64,000 nt of DNA from Nannochloropsis salina CCMP1776 (lineage: Eukaryota; Sar; Eustigmatophyceae; Eustigmatales; Monodopsidaceae), in the NCBI GenBank assembly GCA_004565275.1, contig SDOX01000183.1, positions 90,035 through 154,034 of the forward strand, in the 5' to 3' direction. The translations under genes were made by a program, and so were the position numbers. Below the pieces are notes generated by a model. That model did no database searches and had not been told where the DNA came from. It saw only the letters and a list, made by a program, of their open reading frames with translations. How positions within the stretch are numbered: position 1 is the stretch's first letter; each line of letters begins with the position of its first letter. Positions 828-55,182 of the stretch are shown in pieces.

Positions 828-2654
828 TTTGCGGGCTTCAAGAGGATTGAATACCTCCCTATTTCTCAGGTTGACAGCTCTCCCCGCGAAAAATATCCCT
901 TTTATTCCGTGCCTCTCTGATTATTAATGTAGGGTCAAAAAAGAGGTTTGAGGAAAGTAAAGGGAATTTTAGGCGACCAAGAATCCGTAAAACAAGACTT
1001 CTGTGTATGGACTTTAACGACACCCTTTCCTGACGAATGACTGCGTTAGCAGCTCCTTGGGCAGGTAAACATGTACCCTTAGGCTAGAATAAAGTCTCTA
1101 TGACACCGTGCTCGGTCTAAAGAAACGTACGCGTGAGCGCCTGGATCAAAACTGCACGACACGTTCATTCCTGCAGGCACGCCGCAACCAAAACTTGCAA
1201 CGTCTCAAAAATTTGCTCCCCCCCCCTTTTATCATGCAATCGTGTCGAATTCCGGTATCCGTTAAAGCAATCATAGGGTAATTGGGTTGGTGGGAAGGGG
1301 GCCAAAAGCAATCTACGGATCGGACCGGGTACTCAGGTCGCGTCTTTGACTGGGGCTATGGTCCTTCAAGCTAAGCCAATCTTTACTGGAAAAACTGCAA
1401 AATAGTAATGTCTTATAACCAACAATCACATGATTCTGCTGATAACTCGGGGTGCTCTAATAAAATCTGTAGTTTGAAGAATACAACTGGAAACCAATGC
1501 AGAGATACCTCAACACCTCCGTTACAACCTATCCAGAAAAAGCTCAAATCGGCCGTCCCAGTTTAATGGTTGTTTATAGCATCTTGAATTTAGCATCACA
1601 TCGTAGGGATTACCACGGTTAATCTTTTACGGAATTGCTAAACTAATAAAAAAATGCCCTGATAATGGGGGGAGATCGGAACGGGCGGTTTGCTTGAGGC
1701 CTCTTCTTCATCAAGGGGACCCAAATAGCTTATAACCTTGGGGTACAACATGTGTCGGCGGCCACGAGAGATACTGAAGGGTCTGGTAGTTTTGGCAATC
1801 GAATAGAGCCTCGGGAGAGGGGGGGTTCGCAGCAGTACCTATCTTCTTATGCGTGGGCGCCACTCCTTCCCTGCCGTATTCTCGCCTGATAGAGCAATTG
1901 ACACTAAACACGATTCCCCCACGAGTTTCCCGTCGCCCAGCCTGTGGCACCGACTCCTTGTTGGTATTTCACTTCCGTGTCATGTGGGCATGGTGCTGGT
2001 TTGAGGGAGCTGGCCACGAGCGGTGTTGTGAACACGGATCGTAACGCGCCTTGCTTGCTTTCGCGAGAGGCCAATATTTTTCAACTTGGGAGCACCTTGT
2101 ATACACGGAAAAATTCCTGGTCAATTTACTTGGAGGACACTCAGGTCGATTCAAAAATGTTAACTTCTTGCCTATGACAAACGTAAAACCAGCTCTCACA
2201 GGTCTGCAGCGTGGGCAGTCAAAAGGCAAGGAGGCTTAGCTATAATTTCCATGTCTGATCGCGAGTAAGTGTACGCAATAGTCTCCGTGAGAATACCTGG
2301 TATCCTGCAATGTGCCAGCCTTCCCTGCCCCTCGTCTGTAGTGGTTGAGCGCAATTTCTCTCTGTCGTTGGAAGGCGCCGCGCTAGGAGTGGAATGACAA
2401 GCTTGTCTTGGGGCATGATAGTTTTCCCGGTGCCACTTTTTACACGGGCATTAATGCACGCTCGTCTGACATGAAAAACGACGGCTTGCATGGCCGAAAA
2501 AGGGGCGAGGTATGGTGACGTGAAACCAGTCATGTCTGCCATGTCGTCCTTGGCTCTACCCATGCCACCAAGACGCGCCACCATCTCACCCGCTTGCCCA
2601 GCAACCAATATATGTATATATATCCCATAAATCCCTAAATAATGTTATACATGT
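828..2654. other. intergenic, 1.8 kb, no supported gene
   Basis: Lies between the 5' end of the inositol oxygenase gene and the first readable Argonaute exon. It is AT-richer than the flanking genes up to about 1700 and contains short homopolymer runs (C run near 1217). It may hold promoters for both neighbours and an unseen 5' exon of Argonaute. A 115-codon minus-strand reading frame at 2240-2584 has no recognisable similarity and is not called. Confidence 0.5.
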
Positions 2655-5600
2655 ATGTATCTCTATCCCTCACCTACCAGTCGCGGACATGGCGGGGGCT
2701 ACCGTGGCGGAGGGGGCGGGGGTGGCGGAGGTCGATCGGGAGGAGACCGGGTGTATGGGGGCGGGGAGGCTACCGTANNNNNNNNNNNNNNNNNNNNNNN
2801 NNNNNNNNNNNNNNNNNNNNNNNNNNNNNNNNNNNNNNNNNNNNNNNNNNNNNNNNNNNNNNNNNNNNNNNNNNNNNNNNNNNNNNNNNNNNNNNNNNNN
2901 NNNNNNNNNNNNNNNNNNNNNNNNNNNNNNNNNNNNNNNNNNNNNNNNNNNNNNNNNNNNNNNNNNNNNNNNNNNNNNNNNNNNNNNNNNNNNNNNNNNN
3001 NNNNNNNNNNNNNNNNNNNNNNNNNNNNNNNNNNNNNNNNNNNNNNNNNNNNNNNNNNNNNNNNNNNNNNNNNNNNNNNNNNNNNNNNNNNNNNNNNNNN
3101 NNNNNNNNNNNNNNNNNNNNNNNNNNNNNNNNNNNNNNNNNNNNNNNNNNNNNNNNNGGGCGGGGAGGAGGGGGCCGAGGCCCCCCTGCGGAGGACTTTA
3201 TCCGAGACGTGCAGATTTTCGACGCGACGACGACCGTTCAGGCACCGGGTACCGACGTGGTGGATCGACTGAGAGCCGTGAACTTGGATGTGGATGTGGA
3301 GGCGATCACCTTGCCCCTCCGTCCCTGCCTGGGCTCGGCGGGGACGCCCGTGCGCGTGCTCACGAACCATTACAAGACGTCGTTGGACGGGAACAAGGTC
3401 CTCTACCAGTACGACGTGGCCATCGCCGAGGCGAGCGGGCAACCCATCGATAAGCTCCCGGCGCTCAAGTCCCGGTTGATTTTAAAGGCGGCATTGGCCC
3501 AGGCGCGAAGTCCAGACATCCCTGCGCTTCCCGTGGCGTACGACGGCCAAAAGACTTTGTTCACCGTAAACGACACCGTGCTGGGGGGTACTCGCACCCT
3601 GACCGCGCGTCTGGAGCGGAAAGGGGGCGGGAAGAAGAAGAAGGAGGAAGAGCAGTCCTTCGATGAGTACAGGGTCCAGGTGCAAATGGTAGGGGAGCGG
3701 CGCATGACGGATATCGTCGATTACGTGCAGGGCCGGGACACCTCCGCCCGGCCTCAGGATATGATCAATGCCCTGGATGTGGTTATGAAGGAAGAGGCCC
3801 TGAAGCGGTGCGTAGAGATTGGCCGCGCCAAATTTTTCTCACCCGAGAACCCGGCCACCATTTTCAACGGTCTCTTCCACGCCTATCGGGGTTTCTTCCA
3901 GTCCCTCCGCCCCACCCAGTCGGGTCTAACCTTGAATGTGGACCAGGCGGTGGCGGCCGTGATGCGGGACCAGCCCTTGGAGGAGTTTGTGGGCGCCTTG
4001 CTGCACATGGATGCCCCCCCCCGCCGGTTGGATGAGCGACAGGCACGGGCGGTTTCCAAGGCCGTGAAGGGGCTGAAAATCGAGGTGACACACCGGTCCA
4101 GCGGGCGTATCTACACCGTCATGGGTCTCTCCCCACAGCCTGCCGACCAGATCCGCTTTATGAACGAGGAAGTGGGGGCGGAGCAGACGATTGCGGCCTA
4201 CTTTCAAAGCAAGTACAAGAAGCAGCTTCGGTATCCCTCCCTGCATTGCGTGCGCATGGGCTCCAAACGCAAGCCCACGTTCTTCCCCATCGAGGTGTGC
4301 AAGGTGGTGGCGGGGCAGCGGATCCCGGAGCAGTTTATCCCGAACGTAGCGGCGGACATTGTGGACATCGCCGCGGTGCCTCCCTCCAACAGGTTCAACA
4401 AAGTATATAAGCAGGTGCAGGCGATCGCAGCCTCGGGGAAGCTGGCGGCCCAGTTTGGGTTGAAATTGGAGACCAAGGTCCTGCGTGTCCAAGGCCGTTT
4501 CTTGCCTAGCCCGCGGGTAAGACGTGTGGCTGTTAAGAGAGGCAAGAGGCAACTAACGGTAGCGAAGACAAACATTGTCCTTGGTTGTCTTTCTAGCTAT
4601 GGGTGGGGGGGGGGGGGAAGGCAGGGATAGTGGTGGTTGTGACAGGACGGTATGGGTCGTCCGAGGCAGGCGAAAGACTCTTGCCGCTCACCTCTCTTTC
4701 CCCGCCGTGCCCTACCACCCTTTTTTCTGGCGCTCGCAGGTTACGGTCAAGGGATTCAACGGCCGCGAACTGACCGAGCAGACTTCGGGAGGGGTCTGGT
4801 CGCTGATGAAGAAGATTTTCTACTCCCCCGCGTCCTTGTCCCATTGGAGTGTGGTGTCCTTTTGCGGCAGACACCGTTTGGATGACCAGACTGTGAGTAA
4901 CTACATTGATGGTTTGCGGGACGCGTTGGGAAAGACTGGCGTCAGGGCCCCACCGCCTGAAAAGGTGATCTTCGCGGAGGACGAGCAAGACACGGTATCC
5001 AATTGCTTGCGGAAGGTGCTTCGTTACGGTCCTGGGGAGAAGCAGGGCGATCCTTCGAAGGTTGTTACGCAGCTGGTCGTGTGCCTGATCGAAAAAGAGG
5101 TGTCGATTTACACGGAAGTGAAGCGGGCGGCAGAGACCGTGCACGGGGTGATGACCCAGTGCGTGGCGCGGGACAATGTGCGCAAATGCAACTTTATGAC
5201 GAATGTGAACATTTCTTTGAAGGTGAGAGAAACTTGAGGGGGCTCCGTTCGAATGTCGAAATTACAATGCTGATTTACTCCCCCCCCGGTCTGTTCCGGC
5301 GACAGGTGAACGAGAAGCTGGGCGGAATCAACAGCATAGTCGCCAAGGAGCACATGAGCTACATTCAGAAAAATCGGGTGATGATTCTAGGTGCGGATGT
5401 GAACCATGCGCGAGTGGGGTCAATGCGACCCTCCTTTGCGGCGGTGACAGGGTCCTTGGATGCAGACGCACGAAGGCATACCGCGGTGCTGCAGGCCCAG
5501 TCGCCCCGCCTGGAAATCATCCAGGTGAGGAAGAGGGAGCAAGTTCAAGGGGGAAGTCTCGCTGTACGCGGGTCAATTAGGGCCTGGCAATATGCCCTAG

Positions 5601-6690
5601 AGACATCGTACTCCCGTATTCATTTCTTTTTCTGTCTCCCGCAGGATTTGTCCAACATGGTGCAAAAACTGCTCCTCAAGTTTCACAAAACGACCGGGTC
5701 GCTCCCGCACAAGCTCATCTTCTATCGCGACGGGGTGTCGGAAGGGCAGTTCAAGGAAGTGCTTCAATACGAGGTGCGTTGCTGCTTGTTTGCTCTATGC
5801 ACTGTCATAAGAGACTCTGTGTTGGATTTCTTGTCAGATGCTAGGAAGATGTTATTGGCTAATTTTCTATTCTCCCATTATTCTGGGCTGTCGTGCTCTT
5901 TGGTCATCAGGTCCCCGCAGTCAAGAGCGCGTGCTCGAGAATCAACTCGAAATATCAGCCGAGCTTGACCTTCATTGTGGTCCAAAAACGACACAACACT
6001 CGCTTTTATGGAGTGGAGCGTGCGGAGCAGGATGGAAAATCTGGGAATCTGAAATCCGGTGCGCTTCCTGGGCGTGAAAGTGGGACTTAACGAGCCTTCG
6101 GAATCGGGCTTCTTCCACGTTTTTTTCTCCTGCCTTTTGTTTCTGGCACCCTTAATTTTTCACTTACCCCCCCTGCTCGCTTCCCCCCTCGCCCCTTTTC
6201 TGCAGGACTGGTTGTGGATGCGGGCGTGTGCCACCCATTCGAGTACGATTTTTTCCTGCTCTCCCACGCGGGGCTTAAGGGAACCAGCAAGCCCTCATAC
6301 TATAGGGTAAGGCGAAGAGAGGGGGGATGGCAAGAATGAAAAAATGGATGCCTGACCGATAAGATACTATTGCCTTCGCCTTTCCCGTCTTAGGTTCTCC
6401 GTGACGAATCCAAGATGGGCCCTGACGAGTTGCAGCAGCTCACATACTTCCTATGCCATAACTACGCGCGCTGCACCCGCTCCGTGTCCATGGTGCCGGC
6501 GGTGTACTACTCCCATTTGGCGGCCAAACGTGCCCAGATCTTCTTGACGGACGATGCATTGGCGAGCGAGAGTGGCACGGAGATGTCGACTGACGGGAAT
6601 GACGAGACTGACATGTATGCGGGGATAAACTGGGATGGGACGATGATCAAGATGAAATCGCCGGTGGTTGATAATATGTGGTTTCTCTGA
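2655..6690 (+). CDS. AGO: Argonaute (PAZ-MID-PIWI), multi-exon, N-terminus interrupted by assembly gap
   Basis: Guide-RNA-binding slicer of RNA silencing. Readable exons: 2655?-2777 (Arg-Gly-rich), gap, 3158-4516, 4740-5222, 5306-5524, 5645-5773, 5911-6058, 6206-6306 and 6394-6690; each junction has GT/AG and keeps phase. After the RGG tail come ArgoN, PAZ, MID and PIWI. MID holds the 5'-phosphate pocket (YTEVK, TQC, Lys of NEKLGG). PIWI shows all four catalytic residues of the D-E-D-H tetrad: [19 protein letters not shown] and [10 protein letters not shown]. It ends with the usual hydrophobic WFL-type tail. The phase before and after the gap disagrees, so the gap length is probably wrong or hides an intron. 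The start is uncertain: ATG 2655 is in the RGG frame, but a pyrimidine-rich AG at 2680 could be a splice acceptor from an upstream exon. Confidence 0.93.
2778..3157. other. assembly gap (380 N) inside the Argonaute gene
   Basis: A run of N bases within the glycine/arginine-rich N-terminal coding region. Flanking sequence on both sides encodes Gly-rich RGG-type repeats, which probably caused the assembly break. Reading frames on the two sides are not in register across 380 bases. Confidence 0.99.
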
Positions 6691-26422: not shown

Positions 26423-28918
26423 ATGGCGTCACCCGGTCTCCCTGAGCACACAGCTTACCTTCTCATCGATGGCCAGCACATGCGCGCCGGTTTGCAAGCA
26501 GCAGGTCGGTATTCTTGCAAGTCTTGCTCTCTTATGGTGGGCGTGTAAAAATAAAATGTTTGAAGTCAGAAATTCGGAAGCGGAGGGGGGAGCAGTCATC
26601 CTACACTAGCTTTCAGGTGCCTGATGGTCTTTGAAACTGCCTCTTTGACCTGCCATTAACGACTCCTACCTCCACAACAAAAAAATCATGCAGGAATAGC
26701 CTCGTTTCGGCACGTGGTAAAGGCCTTCGAGATCGCCTATCGGTGTACAGTCCATAGGACGACATGGCAAGGACCCGCCTGCTCCGCCAGCTTACAATTA
26801 TTTCCTCTGGACGGAGCCTCTCCTGCAGGGGGGCACGTGTCGGGAGAGGGTAGGTCTTCCTGTACAAACGAAGGCGACGAAGCAGTAAGGCAGCATCAAA
26901 AAATTCCCTTTCCTAAGGAATCGGGCCTTGCCTCGGCCCTGGCCGCCTTTTCGGGCGCGTACGACGGAGAACAAGACAAAAGCCTGGCAATTCTCGTCTC
27001 TGCCGATGGAACATTGAGCAAAACATTGCTGCAATCGACAAGAAAGGTTGCAGTGTGCGGGTCGCGGGGTTCCTTGGCGCCCTCCCTGCTGCCCTGGGTC
27101 CGTGTTCTGGCCGACGGAGGACTTTTCCTAGAGGATGTTCTTGGCTTGGCGCAGGGCCTCATTCGCGAGGACTTTACCGCACAAGCGACACAAAAATTCC
27201 AGCAGGGGCCATCGAGGATGCTTTCCCAGCCACAGCAAGCGCAGCACATGCAGCAATGGCAACAGCAGCAGGCTCTTGACGTCCATGATCGCCGTATACC
27301 CCAATGCTTGTTGCCCTCAGTGCCAGCCAGCCATCTTCCAGAGAGCCGGAGCACGGCCCCCTCGACACCGACCCTGGCGCCAAGCCTGCATGCCGTAAAA
27401 GGGGATTTTACGAACGACGCCCGTCCCTGGCCCTGGTCGGGGCTCCCTCTCCTACAGCAGAGCATGGCCGAGGGCCTGCCGCCCGGGCTCGGCGGCGACA
27501 CTAGCCGTGTGGAATGCGGCCAATACGGGTCACGAACTGATCTGCTGGCGAAGATGAATCTGGGCTCTGGGTCCTCTCTTCCATCGCGGCAACGACATGC
27601 ATTGCTCCTACAGGCGCAAGAGCAGCTGCGTATGCCGCCAGATACGCAGCCGTTACAGAGCACAGGACATGGCAGCATGCCAAGTGAAAGAAATCATGGA
27701 AAGCCAAACATATCTGTCTATGAGTCGAATGAGGCAATTGCCTGCCTGCACGCACCGGCGAGCGGCGAGAAGGAAGATCGATTGAAACGCCGCAGGTCAC
27801 CCAAACTTCGTCTGCGCTGTTTTGCGGGGCCGCTGTGCAAGAAGTTGCAGGACGAGGACCATGTGCGTCGCACCACCCACCCGTGTCCTGACGGGTTGGC
27901 TTGTCCTGTTGTGCATGCGCCGGAGACTCCAGAAACGATGCTGCACATGGAGAGCTTCCTCCACCCTTGTCCAAAGGGAAGCGCATGCTTGGATGAGAGC
28001 CCTGGACACTCCTCTCTGTTTGAGCACGTGGGGAGAAACATCATGCCGCTGTGCATGCAGGTTGGGTGTCGTGCGGGCGGAGGGTACACGAGGCCAGTGG
28101 GAGGGATGGGGCGGGGCGGAGGAAACGCGTGGGAGAAACAAGCGATGGAGGCGGCGTTGGAGGAATGCCACGGAGGCGTGCCTCACCGACACATTTGCCC
28201 GCACGGTCAGCATTGCTCGTTTCTGACGCATTCAGTGGCGGACAAGCGGGTAATACGGCACACGGCGGCTTTCATCCACCCTTGTCCGTGGGGGTCTCGG
28301 TGTGTGGCGCGAAAGTCTGAAACCTGGAACTGGCAGCACATGCTGCAGTTTACCCATTTTCCGGAGGAGATGGAACCGGAAACGATCGTGCGAGAGGGAG
28401 AAGGCAACGTATTAAGCTTGGCGAACCAGGCTCATGGAAGAATATGGGACCTTCTGGGTCATGGGGGAACACAATGGAGGCGTGGGACTCACACTTGCGT
28501 CAGGGAGGTCCCGCCGACGTTCTACAACCCGCCGAGGGGGGGAAAAGCGATCGGCGCCTCCCTTGCCCCTCACCTTATATCTCAACCCCTTGAGAGGCAT
28601 CCTTCGTGTCCTCTCCCCGAGAGACAAGAGCTTGAGGTCAAGAGGACCTTCTCCTCTCCGTGCACGTCCATGTCGTCGTACTCGGAATTCGACGACCAGG
28701 AAGACGCCGGGGTGCCTTTGGATGGAATTCACCTGCAGGGGGAGGAGCGACTTACCCGTGGAGCGGGAGCGGTGCGCCCGGCGGGTGTCTGGATCATGGA
28801 AGACGTCAGGGATCATGAAGGACTGCCAAGGAGCAACCTGGTGCACGCGCGTTCCCCCCCCGATCCCAATCACTTGGAGTACCTGAAGGTCTCTGGCCCG
28901 CGCTCCACGATGGCGTGA
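26423..28918 (+). CDS. NYN-like domain protein with five PBZ-like C-x5-C / H-x5-H zinc fingers
   Basis: Exons 26423-26504 and 26694-28918 join in phase (GCA GCA G|GA ATA); the start is the Kozak-like gccATGG. About 768 residues. The N-terminus, TAYLLIDGQHMRAGL, then LAILVSADGTLSK and VCGSRGSLAPSLLPW...ADGGLFLED, has the strand order and acidic residues of NYN/PIN-like ribonuclease domains. Residues 190-350 are Gln/Pro/Ser-rich. From 27818 come five fingers with C-x5-C, Gly three after the first Cys, and H-x5-H usually with an aromatic before the last His: CFAGPLC, CPDGLAC, CPKGSAC, CPHGQHC and CPWGSRC. A degenerate CMQVGC sits between the third and fourth complete fingers. The spacing matches poly(ADP-ribose)-binding PBZ fingers. 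A role in RNA or PAR-linked control is inferred; I know of no described family with this combination. Confidence 0.7.
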
Positions 28919-30070
28919 GTCTCTGGTGCTGTGGAGGAAGGAAATTTGCTCTTCGTATTTTATAGCACAAAATCAAAGTCCACTGCCAAGCGCCGGGTGG
29001 AGGAGTTTCAAAAACCGGTTGGATATGGATTGTGTCAAACTATGCGTGATACGACGTGACCGCCAGGCCAGAAAAATGCGTGCCGCGCGCCTCACATTTA
29101 GGATGATGCATCTTCAGATATATAAAATGCAACTACGAATGAATTACCGAATTGCTTCAAATAATTATGATGGCTTGAATAAGCTGACGATAAGAGGACT
29201 TCAGCATCTAGTCCCTAAAATTGGAATGAGAAACTATAGAATCGGCCGCGATACTACTAGAGTAGTCGAAACCGTACATCTGTATCAAACCACTTCTTAG
29301 TGAGGCGCCATGATGCGATAAGTTGTGAAACTACAACCACATATAAGGTTAGCTTAGTGATTTTAAATACCAAGAAATTAGCGAAGACATTGAATTAAGC
29401 TACGTCGTAGCCCAGATCAATAGAAATAAGACAGACCATAAAATAGTATTTTGTCAAATGCAAAAAAGAGAAGGGAAGAAAGAAACCCGTCGCCGGAATG
29501 AAGATGACAAATTAATACACGGAGAGGTATGCAGGCCTGGGGCATCGTTCATCAATAGTTTCTGTCCCGTCCTCCAACCTCCCCCCACAAAAGATCATCA
29601 AGACATAAACGAAGACTACTGCTGATGCCAAGGTGTAAAGTTGCCTCTAAAGGACACACATTGACAGCGAGCGTCGTCTTTCAATATTTTCCCTCTGCTC
29701 ATCGCATGTTTTGTGGGAAACGTGCGGCCTGGTGGGCACGAAGAGAATGGGCCACCGACCACATTCGCGCCTGTCGAGTCGCAGCAAACTTCAAGTCGCT
29801 CCGACGATGGTACTCGTTGCCTACGTCATGTCCCCTGTCTCCGGCAACACTTTTCGAAACTGTAATTTATCTAGGTGTACGGCAACATAACGGTACGATC
29901 TCATCTCTGGGAGCGCAGGCATGCTCGTGCTCTCCTTTTTATTCGCCATTTTCAAACCCCGGATGAGATGTGAGAATTCAAAGCAAGCCGGTCACACTCA
30001 CCATACCAGGCATTATTTATCTACCTGCGCCAGGATGCCATTCAGCGAGGAACTCTTGCGCCCTCAAGAT
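28919..30070. other. intergenic, 1.15 kb
   Basis: AT-rich to about 29620. The frame of the following hydrolase is open upstream to an ATG at 29921, but 29921-30070 reads as an unlikely leader. No other gene, tRNA or repeat seen. Confidence 0.45.
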
Positions 30071-31948
30071 ATGCGTGCTAGTAGGAAAAGAAGGGCTTTA
30101 TGCTCTCTACCTGGTGTTCTGGCGTCCATCTTACTTGTCTTCAGCGTGACAGCTACTCCCGCTGCCGGCCTTATCCTCCCCCCCATCGACGCAGCAACAG
30201 GGCCTGAGGTTGCCCTAGTCCTCCTTCACGGGGCTAACGTCTCTCCCGAGGCATATCTGCCTTTAAGTCGCACGCTCCAAACAGTAATTCAGACAGATGT
30301 ACGTCTGTGGATAGGTTTGCCGGACGTTAATCTGAATGTTCCTATCTATCTTGACGGCGCTATGAATGATCTCAAATCTAATTTTACGGCTCGCGGGCTA
30401 CCGGTCGATGCCCCACGCTTCCTTGCCGGACACTCGCTCGGTGGTGTCCGTGCGCAATCTTACGCTCAAGAGCATGCAGAAGATTGGATGGGAGGGATCT
30501 TGATGGCTTCTGTGCTCCTGCGCGAGTACGACAACATGACTTACCCCGTCCCAACCCTGACCGTGGGGGGAGAAAAAGACGGGAACATGCGTGTGTCCCG
30601 TGTCGCTCAAGCCTCGCATGTCTACCGCATGCAAGCGGAGAAAACGGAGGATTTTCCCGTGGTGGTGGTCCCGGGGGCGAATCACATGAGTTTCGCGTCA
30701 GGCCAACCGCCTCTTCCTGTGGCTTTGGCGGATCTGACCGCCGAAATTTCCGAGGATGACGGCCACGAAAGCATTGCCCAGGTGATGGCGGCTTTTATGC
30801 GCGCGCGTCTGCGCCAGGAGCTGCGGAGAGCAGGAGATCGTGAGGATCGTGGAAGCAGCGGGGACGTTCGATTTCAGGAGGACAGTGTGATGACCGCGGC
30901 ACTGGAGACAACGGCGCAGCTGGTCGACCCCTTGATCAAAGCCATGCTCTTGGAAGGCTCCTGGCACTTTCAGCCGCCCTGCAATTCCGACAGGCCCAGC
31001 CCGCACTGCCCCTTCTACCCGGCCTGGCCCCCACAGCCTGAGGACCGGGAGCCGAGCACGGAGACGAACTGCGTGTGTGGATGCGGGTGGGTCATGGACG
31101 TGGCTCAGGCGCACGTCGGAGATTTGGAGGGGTACGCCACTTATGTGGTCCAGGACGCTTTCCACGACGTGCGAGACACAGAGCCCTACCATCATGCCCA
31201 CCTGTGGAACGGCTGCACCACGGGGGCCCTCCTGGACGGGAGCTGCGTGCTCAACATCACCACTGTGAGTGAGCTGATCTTTGATCCACTTGACGCCCTG
31301 GATGCTGGCTTTGCCCCCGTCACCGCCGCGGAAATTCGGGCCAAGATGAAAAGCCGGCAGTCCATCTACCAGGAGACGGTGGATCCGGAGGCAGCCTTGG
31401 CGGACACGGATAAATTCGATTTCTGCGCGGAAATAAATGCCAAAGCATTCGCCTGGGCCCACGCCCAGGCTCCGCCCCGAACGAAAGAGAGGTTTGATAG
31501 ATTGGGAGTACAGCCCGTGTTCGACCCCGACATTCGACGCCGCGTGCAGATCGGTCCCATCTGGATCAACAGCCCCCTGCGCTTACACGAGGAGTACGAT
31601 CGGCTCAAGGAGCAGTACTTCTGGCATGTACAGAGCCCCACGCTCGTGACGGACGTGACCGCACACATTTATCCCGACAGTGCCGGCTATCACTACTGCA
31701 AACTGCTCTCCCCCGCGCGGGCACTGGAATGGATCTACGTGGACGGTTTGCGCAGATACGACAGGGCAAGCGGAGTAGTGGGAAGGGGGGAAGATGGGAC
31801 GGGAGGGATGACGGCGGAAGAAGAGACAGAGGATCAATTGGCAAGAGAAAAGTCTGTTAACAGTGAGCGTGCAGGAAAAGGGGGGCGCGGATGGGACCAG
31901 AACCAAGAGGGACCGTATCAAACCGCCTCCCTCCGTGAGAGGCTGTAA
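30071..31948 (+). CDS. secreted alpha/beta hydrolase with large unrecognised C-terminal half
   Basis: About 625 residues from ATG 30071. This start was chosen because it yields a canonical signal peptide (RKRRALCSLPGVLASILLVFS, cleavage near TPAAG); in-frame ATGs at 30035 and 29921 exist. The N-terminal 230 residues form an alpha/beta hydrolase: VALVLLHGANVSPEAY, nucleophile elbow AGHSLGG, acid candidate VGGEKDGNM, and catalytic His in PGANHMSF. The remaining 370 residues match nothing I recognise. They contain a Cys cluster (CVCGCGW), His-rich TEPYHHAHLWNG, and WHVQSPTLVTDVTAHIYPDSAGYHYCKLL. The last 60 residues are charged and low-complexity. A lumenal or extracellular esterase/lipase role is inferred. 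Intronless; convergent with XDH. Confidence 0.75.
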   Translation: MRASRKRRALCSLPGVLASILLVFSVTATPAAGLILPPIDAATGPEVALVLLHGANVSPEAYLPLSRTLQTVIQTDVRLWIGLPDVNLNVPIYLDGAMNDLKSNFTARGLPVDAPRFLAGHSLGGVRAQSYAQEHAEDWMGGILMASVLLREYDNMTYPVPTLTVGGEKDGNMRVSRVAQASHVYRMQAEKTEDFPVVVVPGANHMSFASGQPPLPVALADLTAEISEDDGHESIAQVMAAFMRARLRQELRRAGDREDRGSSGDVRFQEDSVMTAALETTAQLVDPLIKAMLLEGSWHFQPPCNSDRPSPHCPFYPAWPPQPEDREPSTETNCVCGCGWVMDVAQAHVGDLEGYATYVVQDAFHDVRDTEPYHHAHLWNGCTTGALLDGSCVLNITTVSELIFDPLDALDAGFAPVTAAEIRAKMKSRQSIYQETVDPEAALADTDKFDFCAEINAKAFAWAHAQAPPRTKERFDRLGVQPVFDPDIRRRVQIGPIWINSPLRLHEEYDRLKEQYFWHVQSPTLVTDVTAHIYPDSAGYHYCKLLSPARALEWIYVDGLRRYDRASGVVGRGEDGTGGMTAEEETEDQLAREKSVNSERAGKGGRGWDQNQEGPYQTASLRERL

Positions 31949-52976: not shown

Positions 52977-53346
52977 AGCCTGTACAGATGTGTTACCGTG
53001 CACGTTATGCGAGGGAGGGACATGTTCACACATCGATCTAGCTATAATGAGTGATACCATTACAGGTGATCACATAGGGACAAAGCACAGCATTAGTGTA
53101 ACTCAAATGTTTGCTGCTTCGCGTCTAACCTCCCCCCCCCCGAAATAACCTCCTCCCCCTTGACTCAAAAGCCTTTCTCTCCTCTCCTCCTTTGCCCTCG
53201 TCCTGCGATAGGTTACACGGGCTGTCTGCTAAGGTACCTTAGAATGGCTGATACTCGTCTCTTGGAAAGGAGGTAATTTGTTCGACGGAGTAAGCTCATC
53301 CCATTTTATTCCTATAGAAAGACAGGGGCAGCGGCAGGCGGGCATA
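52977..53346. promoter_or_regulatory. 370-bp region shared by divergent FN3K and PUS10
   Basis: Presumed bidirectional promoter. A C-rich run lies at about 53131-53141. No specific element recognised. Confidence 0.4.
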
Positions 53347-55182
53347 ATGCCTGTTTCCCCACCACCTTCGTTGCCTTTGCCGGACGAGGATACCTGGTCG
53401 CTTTCAGCATTCAGGCTTCTATACCCCAAAATAAATTGCATTCGATGCAGCCTGCGCCTGGCGGGCGTATGCGATGCTGAAATACTTCGTGCCCCGGAAC
53501 GTCAATTGCGTGCCACCCTTTGCTCTGCGCAGGGTGCAGAAATAAGCCATGCCACCTGCAGAATATGTCCGCTTTGTTTGGGCATGCTACAGTCGTCAGG
53601 TGATAGAAAACTCGGCTCGGCTCTGTTAGATGCAATTTTAGCGCAAATTAAAACGAAAAAGTACGTGTTGCCGACTGCCGGTGATAGCCCTGACATGACA
53701 CAACATAAAAGTACCACCGACCCTATCAGTGAAATGGTTGCTGAACACTCCAACAATCTCGTGGAGAGAAAAGTTCCATTCATCCTCGGAGTCTCACTGC
53801 CCGGTTCTGTGGCTATCCGGGACCGCGCCGCCCTTGAATGGGTAGCGTGCGAGCAGCAAACCGGGGGTCACCAGGACCCGGGGCGGCGCCTGGACGTGAA
53901 AGAAATCCTGAAAGCAGTCTTGGAGTCATGTTTACCGAAGCACTATCCATGCTTGTACGCGGCATCAACTCCTTCCCCTGGGGCCCTGAGAGTGGACCTC
54001 TCTTTCTGGCACGCGGGGGCCGACGAGGCGGACTACCACCAGGGTGTGCGCATTCTTATGCCGAACGCCACGGGGAAGGCCTTCAACCGTACCCGGAAGC
54101 GCCGGCGACACGAAGAGAGCAATCAGGAAAACCTCTGTAATGCCACAGTGGTAGCGCGCGTCCTACAGGCGGCCACGGGTGACCCGGACGTGCGGTCAGG
54201 CCTGGCTGTCTTTTTTGCGCGAAACCTGATGCCTCCTTCCACGCATTCGCCCACTGCGTACGCGGCGCTGGAGACGCCGGCCGTGTCCTCGGTCCAAGTG
54301 ACCCGAGAGGCAATCTTTTTGGCGGGCCGGTACCTAAAATTAAGCCGAGAGATGCCGCAGACGTTGTGGGTGGTAGAGGGGGGAAGGCGGAAGGGGAAAG
54401 CCTCGGTAGAGGAGGTAGTCGCAGAGCCCGTGCTCGATTGGACAAGCGCGACCTCGGCCGTGCTGATAGGTTCGGGCAGAGAGGACATGGACGTGAGGAT
54501 GTTGGGAAGCGGGCGGCCTTTCCTCCTCCGCGTGAACGACCCCCGGCGGATCCCGGGGAGAGAGGAGGTGGCGGGCTTGGAGGCGGCAATCAATCAGACG
54601 ACGGGCCTGAACTCGGAAGGGGACGTGCGAGTGCACGGGTTGCGACTCTCGGACAAGCATGAAGTGAAGGCAATGCACGCAGGGGCCACGGAGAAGGTGA
54701 AGATGTACAGCTGTCGTGTTTGGGTGGGGGGCCGCGTGGACCGAGCGCTCCTGGCTACTAGTCTGGAGGGCAGCAAGGAGCTAGTGGTAGCGCAGAAAAC
54801 GCCGATCCGGGTCTTACATCGCCGCGCGCTTTTGACTCGGCCTAAGGTGATCCATGAGATGCGGTGCACGGATGTGAAGGTGGTGGAGGGCGGGGAGGAG
54901 GGCGGGGAGGAAGGCGGGGAGATGGCTGTGGGAATGTACTTCACTTTGCATTTACGAACCTCCGCGGGGACCTACATCAAAGAATTTGTGCACGGAGACA
55001 TGGGAAGGACCAAGCCGAGCGTGGGCGACCTTTTGGGAGGCCTGGAGGCGGATCTATTGGCCTTGGACGTGACGGGCATCGTGATGGAGGGCGAGGAGGG
55101 GGAACGGGAGGAAGGAAAGGAACAAGAGGAGGAGGCAGGAGGAGGCGTGAAAGGTGCCGAGATAAATGGGATCGTGGTGTAA
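53347..55182 (+). CDS. PUS10: tRNA pseudouridine synthase PUS10
   Basis: About 611 residues, intronless, ATG 53347. Makes pseudouridine 54 and 55 in the tRNA T-loop. The N-terminus has a zinc site (CIRC...CRICPLC), followed by a THUMP-like region to about residue 260. The catalytic domain has GRYLKLSREMPQTLW, GSGREDMDVRMLGSGRPFL with the catalytic Asp in MDVRML, VNDPRR, LRLSDKHEVKAM and KTPIRVLHRRALL. It ends with RTSAGTYIKEFVHGDMGRTKPS, the classical PUS10 C-terminus. Two Glu/Gly-rich low-complexity inserts (GGEEGGEEGGE and a terminal EEGEREEGKEQEEE) are peculiar to this host. PUS10 is found in archaea and many eukaryotes but not yeast. Confidence 0.95.
   Translation: MPVSPPPSLPLPDEDTWSLSAFRLLYPKINCIRCSLRLAGVCDAEILRAPERQLRATLCSAQGAEISHATCRICPLCLGMLQSSGDRKLGSALLDAILAQIKTKKYVLPTAGDSPDMTQHKSTTDPISEMVAEHSNNLVERKVPFILGVSLPGSVAIRDRAALEWVACEQQTGGHQDPGRRLDVKEILKAVLESCLPKHYPCLYAASTPSPGALRVDLSFWHAGADEADYHQGVRILMPNATGKAFNRTRKRRRHEESNQENLCNATVVARVLQAATGDPDVRSGLAVFFARNLMPPSTHSPTAYAALETPAVSSVQVTREAIFLAGRYLKLSREMPQTLWVVEGGRRKGKASVEEVVAEPVLDWTSATSAVLIGSGREDMDVRMLGSGRPFLLRVNDPRRIPGREEVAGLEAAINQTTGLNSEGDVRVHGLRLSDKHEVKAMHAGATEKVKMYSCRVWVGGRVDRALLATSLEGSKELVVAQKTPIRVLHRRALLTRPKVIHEMRCTDVKVVEGGEEGGEEGGEMAVGMYFTLHLRTSAGTYIKEFVHGDMGRTKPSVGDLLGGLEADLLALDVTGIVMEGEEGEREEGKEQEEEAGGGVKGAEINGIVV

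Follow-up and report, generated by a model that had tools for sequence, protein, structure and literature searches.

A predicted NYN-domain gene with an array of PBZ-spaced zinc fingers, one of three paralogues in Nannochloropsis salina

The gene under study occupies positions 26423–28918 on the plus strand of the window, that is, the whole 64,000-nt stretch of Nannochloropsis salina CCMP1776 DNA that was analysed, in which the G+C content varies between 0.49 and 0.62 in 4-kb steps. The sequence-only reading had taken this region as a single span; it is indeed one gene, but it holds a 189-bp intron and consists of two exons, whose spliced product is 768 aa long. Exon 1 (26423–26504) carries the start codon and the first strand of the NYN-like domain (LLIDG, with the acid D16 at 26468–26470), the GT..AG intron (GTCGGT...CATGCAG) lies at 26505–26693, and exon 2 (26694–28918) encodes the remainder of the NYN-like domain, a linker, the finger array, the tail and the stop. 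When the intron is read through, four in-frame stops are encountered. In the scanned range, 40 GT/GC..AG pairs leave the frame open, and the pair given here was chosen because homology favours it. Since LLIDG of exon 1 aligns with VIDG and LIDG of the two paralogues described below (paralogues 2 and 3, respectively), exon 1 is probably coding; the relatives P0001 and P0002 both start within the part matching exon 2. The NYN/PIN-like domain comprises approximately residues 10–188 (26450–27175, intron included) and is similar to the NYN domain of paralogue 2; it is connected to the fingers by a linker with a Gln-rich stretch (27176–27811), the alignable part of which is 28.6% identical to that of P0002 (44/154).

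Five fingers of the protein fit the pattern C-x2-G-x2-C-x(6-14)-H-x5-H. Finger 1 (residues 403–423, 27818–27880), finger 2 (425–451, 27884–27964) and finger 3 (453–472, 27968–28027) have loops of 7, 13 and 6 residues between the second Cys and the first His, while fingers 5 (529–556, 28196–28279) and 6 (558–582, 28283–28357), which had been counted as the fourth and fifth, have loops of 14 and 11. All five fingers previously proposed were thus recovered, with a loop range of 6–14 instead of 6–17, and so were the Gly at Cys+3 (5/5) and the aromatic residue two positions before the last His in most of them (4/5, finger 1 having Thr). Such motifs are rare by chance: when the 768 aa were shuffled 100,000 times, one finger appeared in 123 cases and two in none, and when only residues 401–584 were shuffled (n = 100,000), the corresponding numbers were 566 and 0. 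Between the two groups, at 28052–28192, lies the CMQVGC motif (residues 481–486) followed by HGGVPHRH. It had been described as decayed, and a diverged motif is present there; however, CMQVGC and the later H520, H525 and H527 are kept in P0002 (CTAVGC...HGGVPHRH), and in paralogue 2 the region is matched by a complete finger, although the alignment is ambiguous there. We therefore regard it as a probable, diverged finger 4, which would bring the array to six fingers. The six fingers of paralogue 2 have loop lengths of 7, 24, 6, 16, 14 and 11 residues, four of which agree in order with those of the focal protein provided that CMQVGC...HGGVPHRH is finger 4. The 1:1 order of fingers ranked 8th among 720 possible pairings (4th among 120 without finger 4), thus a finger-by-finger correspondence between the two proteins is favoured by the alignment scores but not proven.

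Searches with the focal fingers, the paralogue 2 fingers and the paralogue 3 domains had three family loci of the genome in common; two additional weak matches (C42, E 0.017; C72, E 0.68) appeared with the focal fingers and were absent with the paralogue queries. As a profile of the full-length alignment gave P0001 alone, trimmed domains were also used as queries. Over all searches of the 5.8 billion proteins, with approximately 8,000 candidates scored in each, at least nine relatives (P0001–P0009) were obtained. Assignment by eye placed each of them with one of the three paralogues, P0009 (E 5.8) being accepted solely through its alignment with paralogue 3. P0001 is 94% identical to the focal protein. 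No relative was confirmed on viral and prokaryotic contigs, and because the collections probably hold too few eukaryotic genes with introns, the family may be more widely spread than these relatives suggest. In paralogue 2, a splice was placed inside finger 5 (...KKRYHLMDYTH), which is supported by the unbroken run of the same residues in P0003. In paralogue 3 (L007:1978-4527), the NYN domain is preceded by about 72 N-terminal residues that form a conserved domain, 85% identical in P0005 and 82% in P0009; this domain looks winged-helix-like by eye, matched no Pfam family and had no significant counterpart in the PDB. The comparisons show that the focal gene is one of three paralogues predicted to combine a MARF1/LabA-type NYN domain with a nearly head-to-tail array of PBZ-spaced CCHH fingers.

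The strand motifs on which the NYN assignment of the sequence-only reading had been based (LLIDGQHM, LVSADG and LEDVL) are all there in the translation. No Pfam family matched the focal N-terminal domain, and the Pfam NYN matches of P0002 (18.3 bits) and the paralogue at L002 (15.0 bits) remained below the cut-off of 24.2 bits. The focal domain aligned with the paralogue 2 NYN domain with a score of 84, which was reached by 0/500 shuffles (32.5 ± 5.3), while its likeness to paralogue 3 was weak (score reached by 4/500 shuffles). Although a Foldseek search with the paralogue model alone gave nothing at E 0.001, MARF1 NYN was among the matches of the paralogue 2 model and accounted for two of the three best solved structures. 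Taken together, the paralogue 2 model and the sub-cut-off Pfam matches support a predicted NYN fold for the focal domain, carried over from the paralogue.

The focal copy differs from paralogue 2 in its presumed metal site. According to the excerpted texts, PIN/NYN nucleases use four Asp residues, which are D358, D426, D427 and D452 in MARF1 (PMC6294520), and KHNYN has a tetra-Asp site (PMC12709174). In the alignments, paralogue 2 retains all four acids (ID, KGVDL, TGDED), and P0002, the sequence of which lacks the first strand, has KGVDV and TGDGD. The focal copy keeps two of the four (ID, KESGL, SADGT): G105 (26924–26926) stands where the KGVDV motif has its acid, and in D132-G133-T134 (27005–27013) the first acid of GDxD is retained while the second is Thr. 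The same substitutions are seen in P0001 (KESGL, SGDGT). Paralogue 3 also has two acids (ID, DTGIA, AGSD), but another pair than the focal copy, from which we infer that the active site was lost in the focal branch and separately in paralogue 3. The fingers are better conserved than the NYN part both between the focal protein and P0002 (75.4%, 138/183 vs. 36.6%, 56/153) and between paralogue 2 and its relatives (85.7%, 144/168 vs. 60.9%, 95/156), the NYN part being far less kept in the focal branch.

The identity of the fingers was examined against both PBZ and CCCH. The excerpt of PMC4030884 gives the PBZ consensus as [K/R]xxCx[F/Y]GxxCxbbxxxxHxxx[F/Y]xH, where we read b as basic. The focal fingers have C-x5-C and H-x5-H in 5/5 cases and an x6 loop in one (finger 3), and among 19 family copies the aromatic residue at His−2 occurs in 15. 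In contrast, F/Y at Cys+2 was found in 0/5 focal fingers and 1/19 copies, and the basic pair after the second Cys in 0/5 and 0/19. The 19-copy comparison left out finger 4 of the focal protein and of P0002 as well as the copies in P0001, P0003 and P0004, and paralogue 2 finger 6 (C-x3-C) was given two gap signs to keep the register. In the alignment of 16 copies used for profiles (A5), the copies were chosen for having C, C, H and H, thus the invariance of the ligands there is by construction. Compared with APLF and CHFR PBZ fingers, with which they share C-x5-C...H-x5-H, Gly at Cys+3 and the aromatic at His−2, the family fingers have loops of 6 to 24 residues rather than 6, lack nearly all F/Y at Cys+2 and the basic pair, and several neighbouring fingers are joined by one residue.

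Profile comparisons gave weak matches to both finger types. Finger 6 alone matched Pfam PBZ (PF10283) with 18.0 bits and E 0.0029 (cut-off 22.7); of the five single-finger peptides no other matched it, those of fingers 1 and 2 stopping one residue before the last His. None of ten further finger peptides matched PBZ, and two gave sub-cut-off CCCH matches. When the finger region was searched as a whole, zf_CCCH_4 (E 0.026) ranked over PBZ (E 0.22), both below their cut-offs. The other CCCH matches were likewise sub-cut-off: 14.0 bits vs. 31.1 (E 0.048) for finger 5 with zf-CCCH_UNK, 15.1 vs. 29 and 9.5 vs. 20.5 for the focal protein with zf_CCCH_4 and zf-CCCH, respectively, and 15.6 vs. 20.5 for P0003 with zf-CCCH. 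A pooled finger profile matched Unkempt (E 2.1e-4), APLF (E 0.011) and TTP (E 0.014), but an eggshell protein that is Cys-rich and otherwise unrelated was matched as well (E 0.011); neither Unkempt nor APLF appeared with a profile of the focal subfamily fingers. The whole-array profile retrieved two PDB matches in all, both APLF (E 0.1), Unkempt being no longer among them. The structure model of the fingers was poor (mean pLDDT 52.8, with 10-residue means of 69–86 just at residues 11 to 70), and three of its seven Foldseek matches, including the top two, were structures of CHFR bound to ADP-ribose-like ligands, covering its C-terminal cysteine-rich domain, in which the CHFR PBZ lies. These matches were weak (E 5.0 to 8.7, TM no higher than 0.15).

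The family fingers resemble Unkempt in the CPxGxxCPF core followed by H-x3-aromatic. The CCCH ligand set of Unkempt includes an upstream Cys, whereas in the family C, C, H and H recur, and the three arrays open with C..C and close with H..H. The earlier designation of the fingers as PBZ-like thus holds for the zinc-ligand scaffold, with weak matches, but not for the other consensus residues, which are nearly all absent. In sequence terms, the focal fingers present a PBZ-type zinc scaffold without the remaining PBZ consensus residues and resemble both PBZ and CCCH. The resemblance of PBZ folds, most of all, to tandem CCCH fingers binding single-stranded RNA, as stated in the excerpt of PMC4030884, fits such an intermediate.

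In a rival reading, the fingers would read poly(ADP-ribose) or mono-ADP-ribose and bring the NYN domain to modified targets, and a co-occurrence with PARP and PARG genes had been proposed as a check. The 26.5-Mb genome (103 contigs), which carries eukaryotic genes, was searched in six frames exon by exon, thus divergent or split genes may have been missed. One PARP16/ARTD15-like gene (L010:7-2301) was the only PARP catalytic match, below both Pfam cut-offs and with a sub-cut-off match to the ARTD15 N-terminal domain; the PARP16 type is mono-ADP-ribosylating. Two macrodomain loci exceeded the cut-off. The six-frame search found no PARP1-type domain, no WGR (two control genomes gave matches), and no PARP_reg or PARG (the control genomes gave no match either). 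According to the excerpt of PMC4245714, PBZ strictly co-evolved with PARPs, and some PARP-bearing genomes are without obvious PARG. Canonical PBZ was absent from the genome at E 0.001, as it was from the control genomes, while a CCCH model of comparable length matched it at 8 places at E 0.001 and at 18 at E 1. The ligand spacing, Gly at Cys+3 and His−2 aromatic, the finger 6, APLF and CHFR matches, and the PARP16/ARTD15-like and macrodomain genes speak for a reader of ADP-ribose; against it stand the nearly complete loss of the non-scaffold PBZ residues, the ten finger peptides matching no PBZ, and the missing canonical PBZ, PARP_reg, WGR and PARG. We consider such a reader very unlikely, and the PAR-gated RNase is not supported; for the focal protein, a response to RNA is likelier than a response to PAR.

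The suggestion that the focal copy is an active ribonuclease is not supported either, as it has KESGL and ADGT where its relatives have KGVDV and GDxD. A Regnase/MARF1-like endoribonuclease, in which the substituted site still binds Mn2+ or nearby acids take over, would be consistent with the two retained acids, the paralogue-derived fold and the complete site of paralogue 2. However, the focal copy and P0001 have lost the acid of KGVDV as well as the last one of GDxD, and changing Asp426 and Asp427, which may correspond to these positions, strongly reduced MARF1 activity (excerpt of PMC6294520), thus this reading appears unlikely. A scaffold protein that makes no contact with nucleic acid, and whose fingers serve a structural role or bind proteins, would agree with the weak finger model, on which a binding surface could not be mapped. 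The strong conservation over 184 aa and the likeness to RNA- and PAR-binding fingers argue against it, and we hold it to be quite unlikely. The explanation we prefer, with about an even chance of being correct, is that the family binds RNA via its fingers and that the focal copy is a probable pseudonuclease, while the site of a paralogue is intact.

Under this RNA-binding explanation, the finger array would grip single-stranded nucleic acid, in all likelihood RNA, through small contacts contributed by the individual fingers, in a manner similar to tandem CCCH fingers. In paralogue 2, with its four acids, the NYN domain may cut the bound RNA. The focal copy, having lost two of the four acids while its fingers are well kept, would act without cutting, and it could tune the active paralogue by binding to the RNAs or partners that the two have in common. 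More tentatively, PBZ-type fingers, known as poly(ADP-ribose) readers, may in this lineage have turned into an array of several fingers that reads RNA and is coupled to an NYN nuclease, while one member, as a pseudonuclease, restrains its active sister. In that case PBZ and CCCH fingers would mark the two extremes of a single fold continuum, with the family in between. This is possible but doubtful.

The pairing of an NYN domain with a PBZ-like array is real and conserved, and we found no description of it in the open-licence PMC literature, where no paper was found with both NYN and PBZ, none linking Unkempt with PBZ and zinc finger, and none on Nannochloropsis with zf-CCHH or with an NYN domain. 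In Regnase/ZC3H12 proteins, an NYN/PIN domain is combined with a CCCH finger. The focal protein shares the order, with zinc finger(s) after a nuclease fold of the PIN-like type, but differs in its CCHH fingers, its six places in a row, the long linker and the degenerate site. MARF1 has the NYN fold in common with the family (paralogue 2 model) and, like paralogue 2, four acids; unlike the focal family, its layout in the excerpt of PMC6294520 has no zinc-finger array. OST-HTH/LOTUS gave no match in this genome. NYN nucleases depend on additional domains for reaching their RNAs, and the PBZ-like array would be such a steering part. The family would make it possible to address which came first, PBZ or RNA-binding fingers, and the intact and degenerate paralogues form a natural pair in which an enzyme can be compared with a pseudoenzyme.

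Three other genes of the window are worth recording. An Argonaute gene (2639–5968; ArgoN, PAZ and Piwi, in two open frames) is separated from the NYN gene by about 20 kb and suggests an RNA-silencing pathway in this genome. The neighbouring open frame at 29891–31948 matched Abhydrolase_5 (33.8 bits, cut-off 27) and has a long further C-terminal part, and the open frame at 53233–55182 encodes a Pus10 C-terminal domain of the pseudouridine synthase family.
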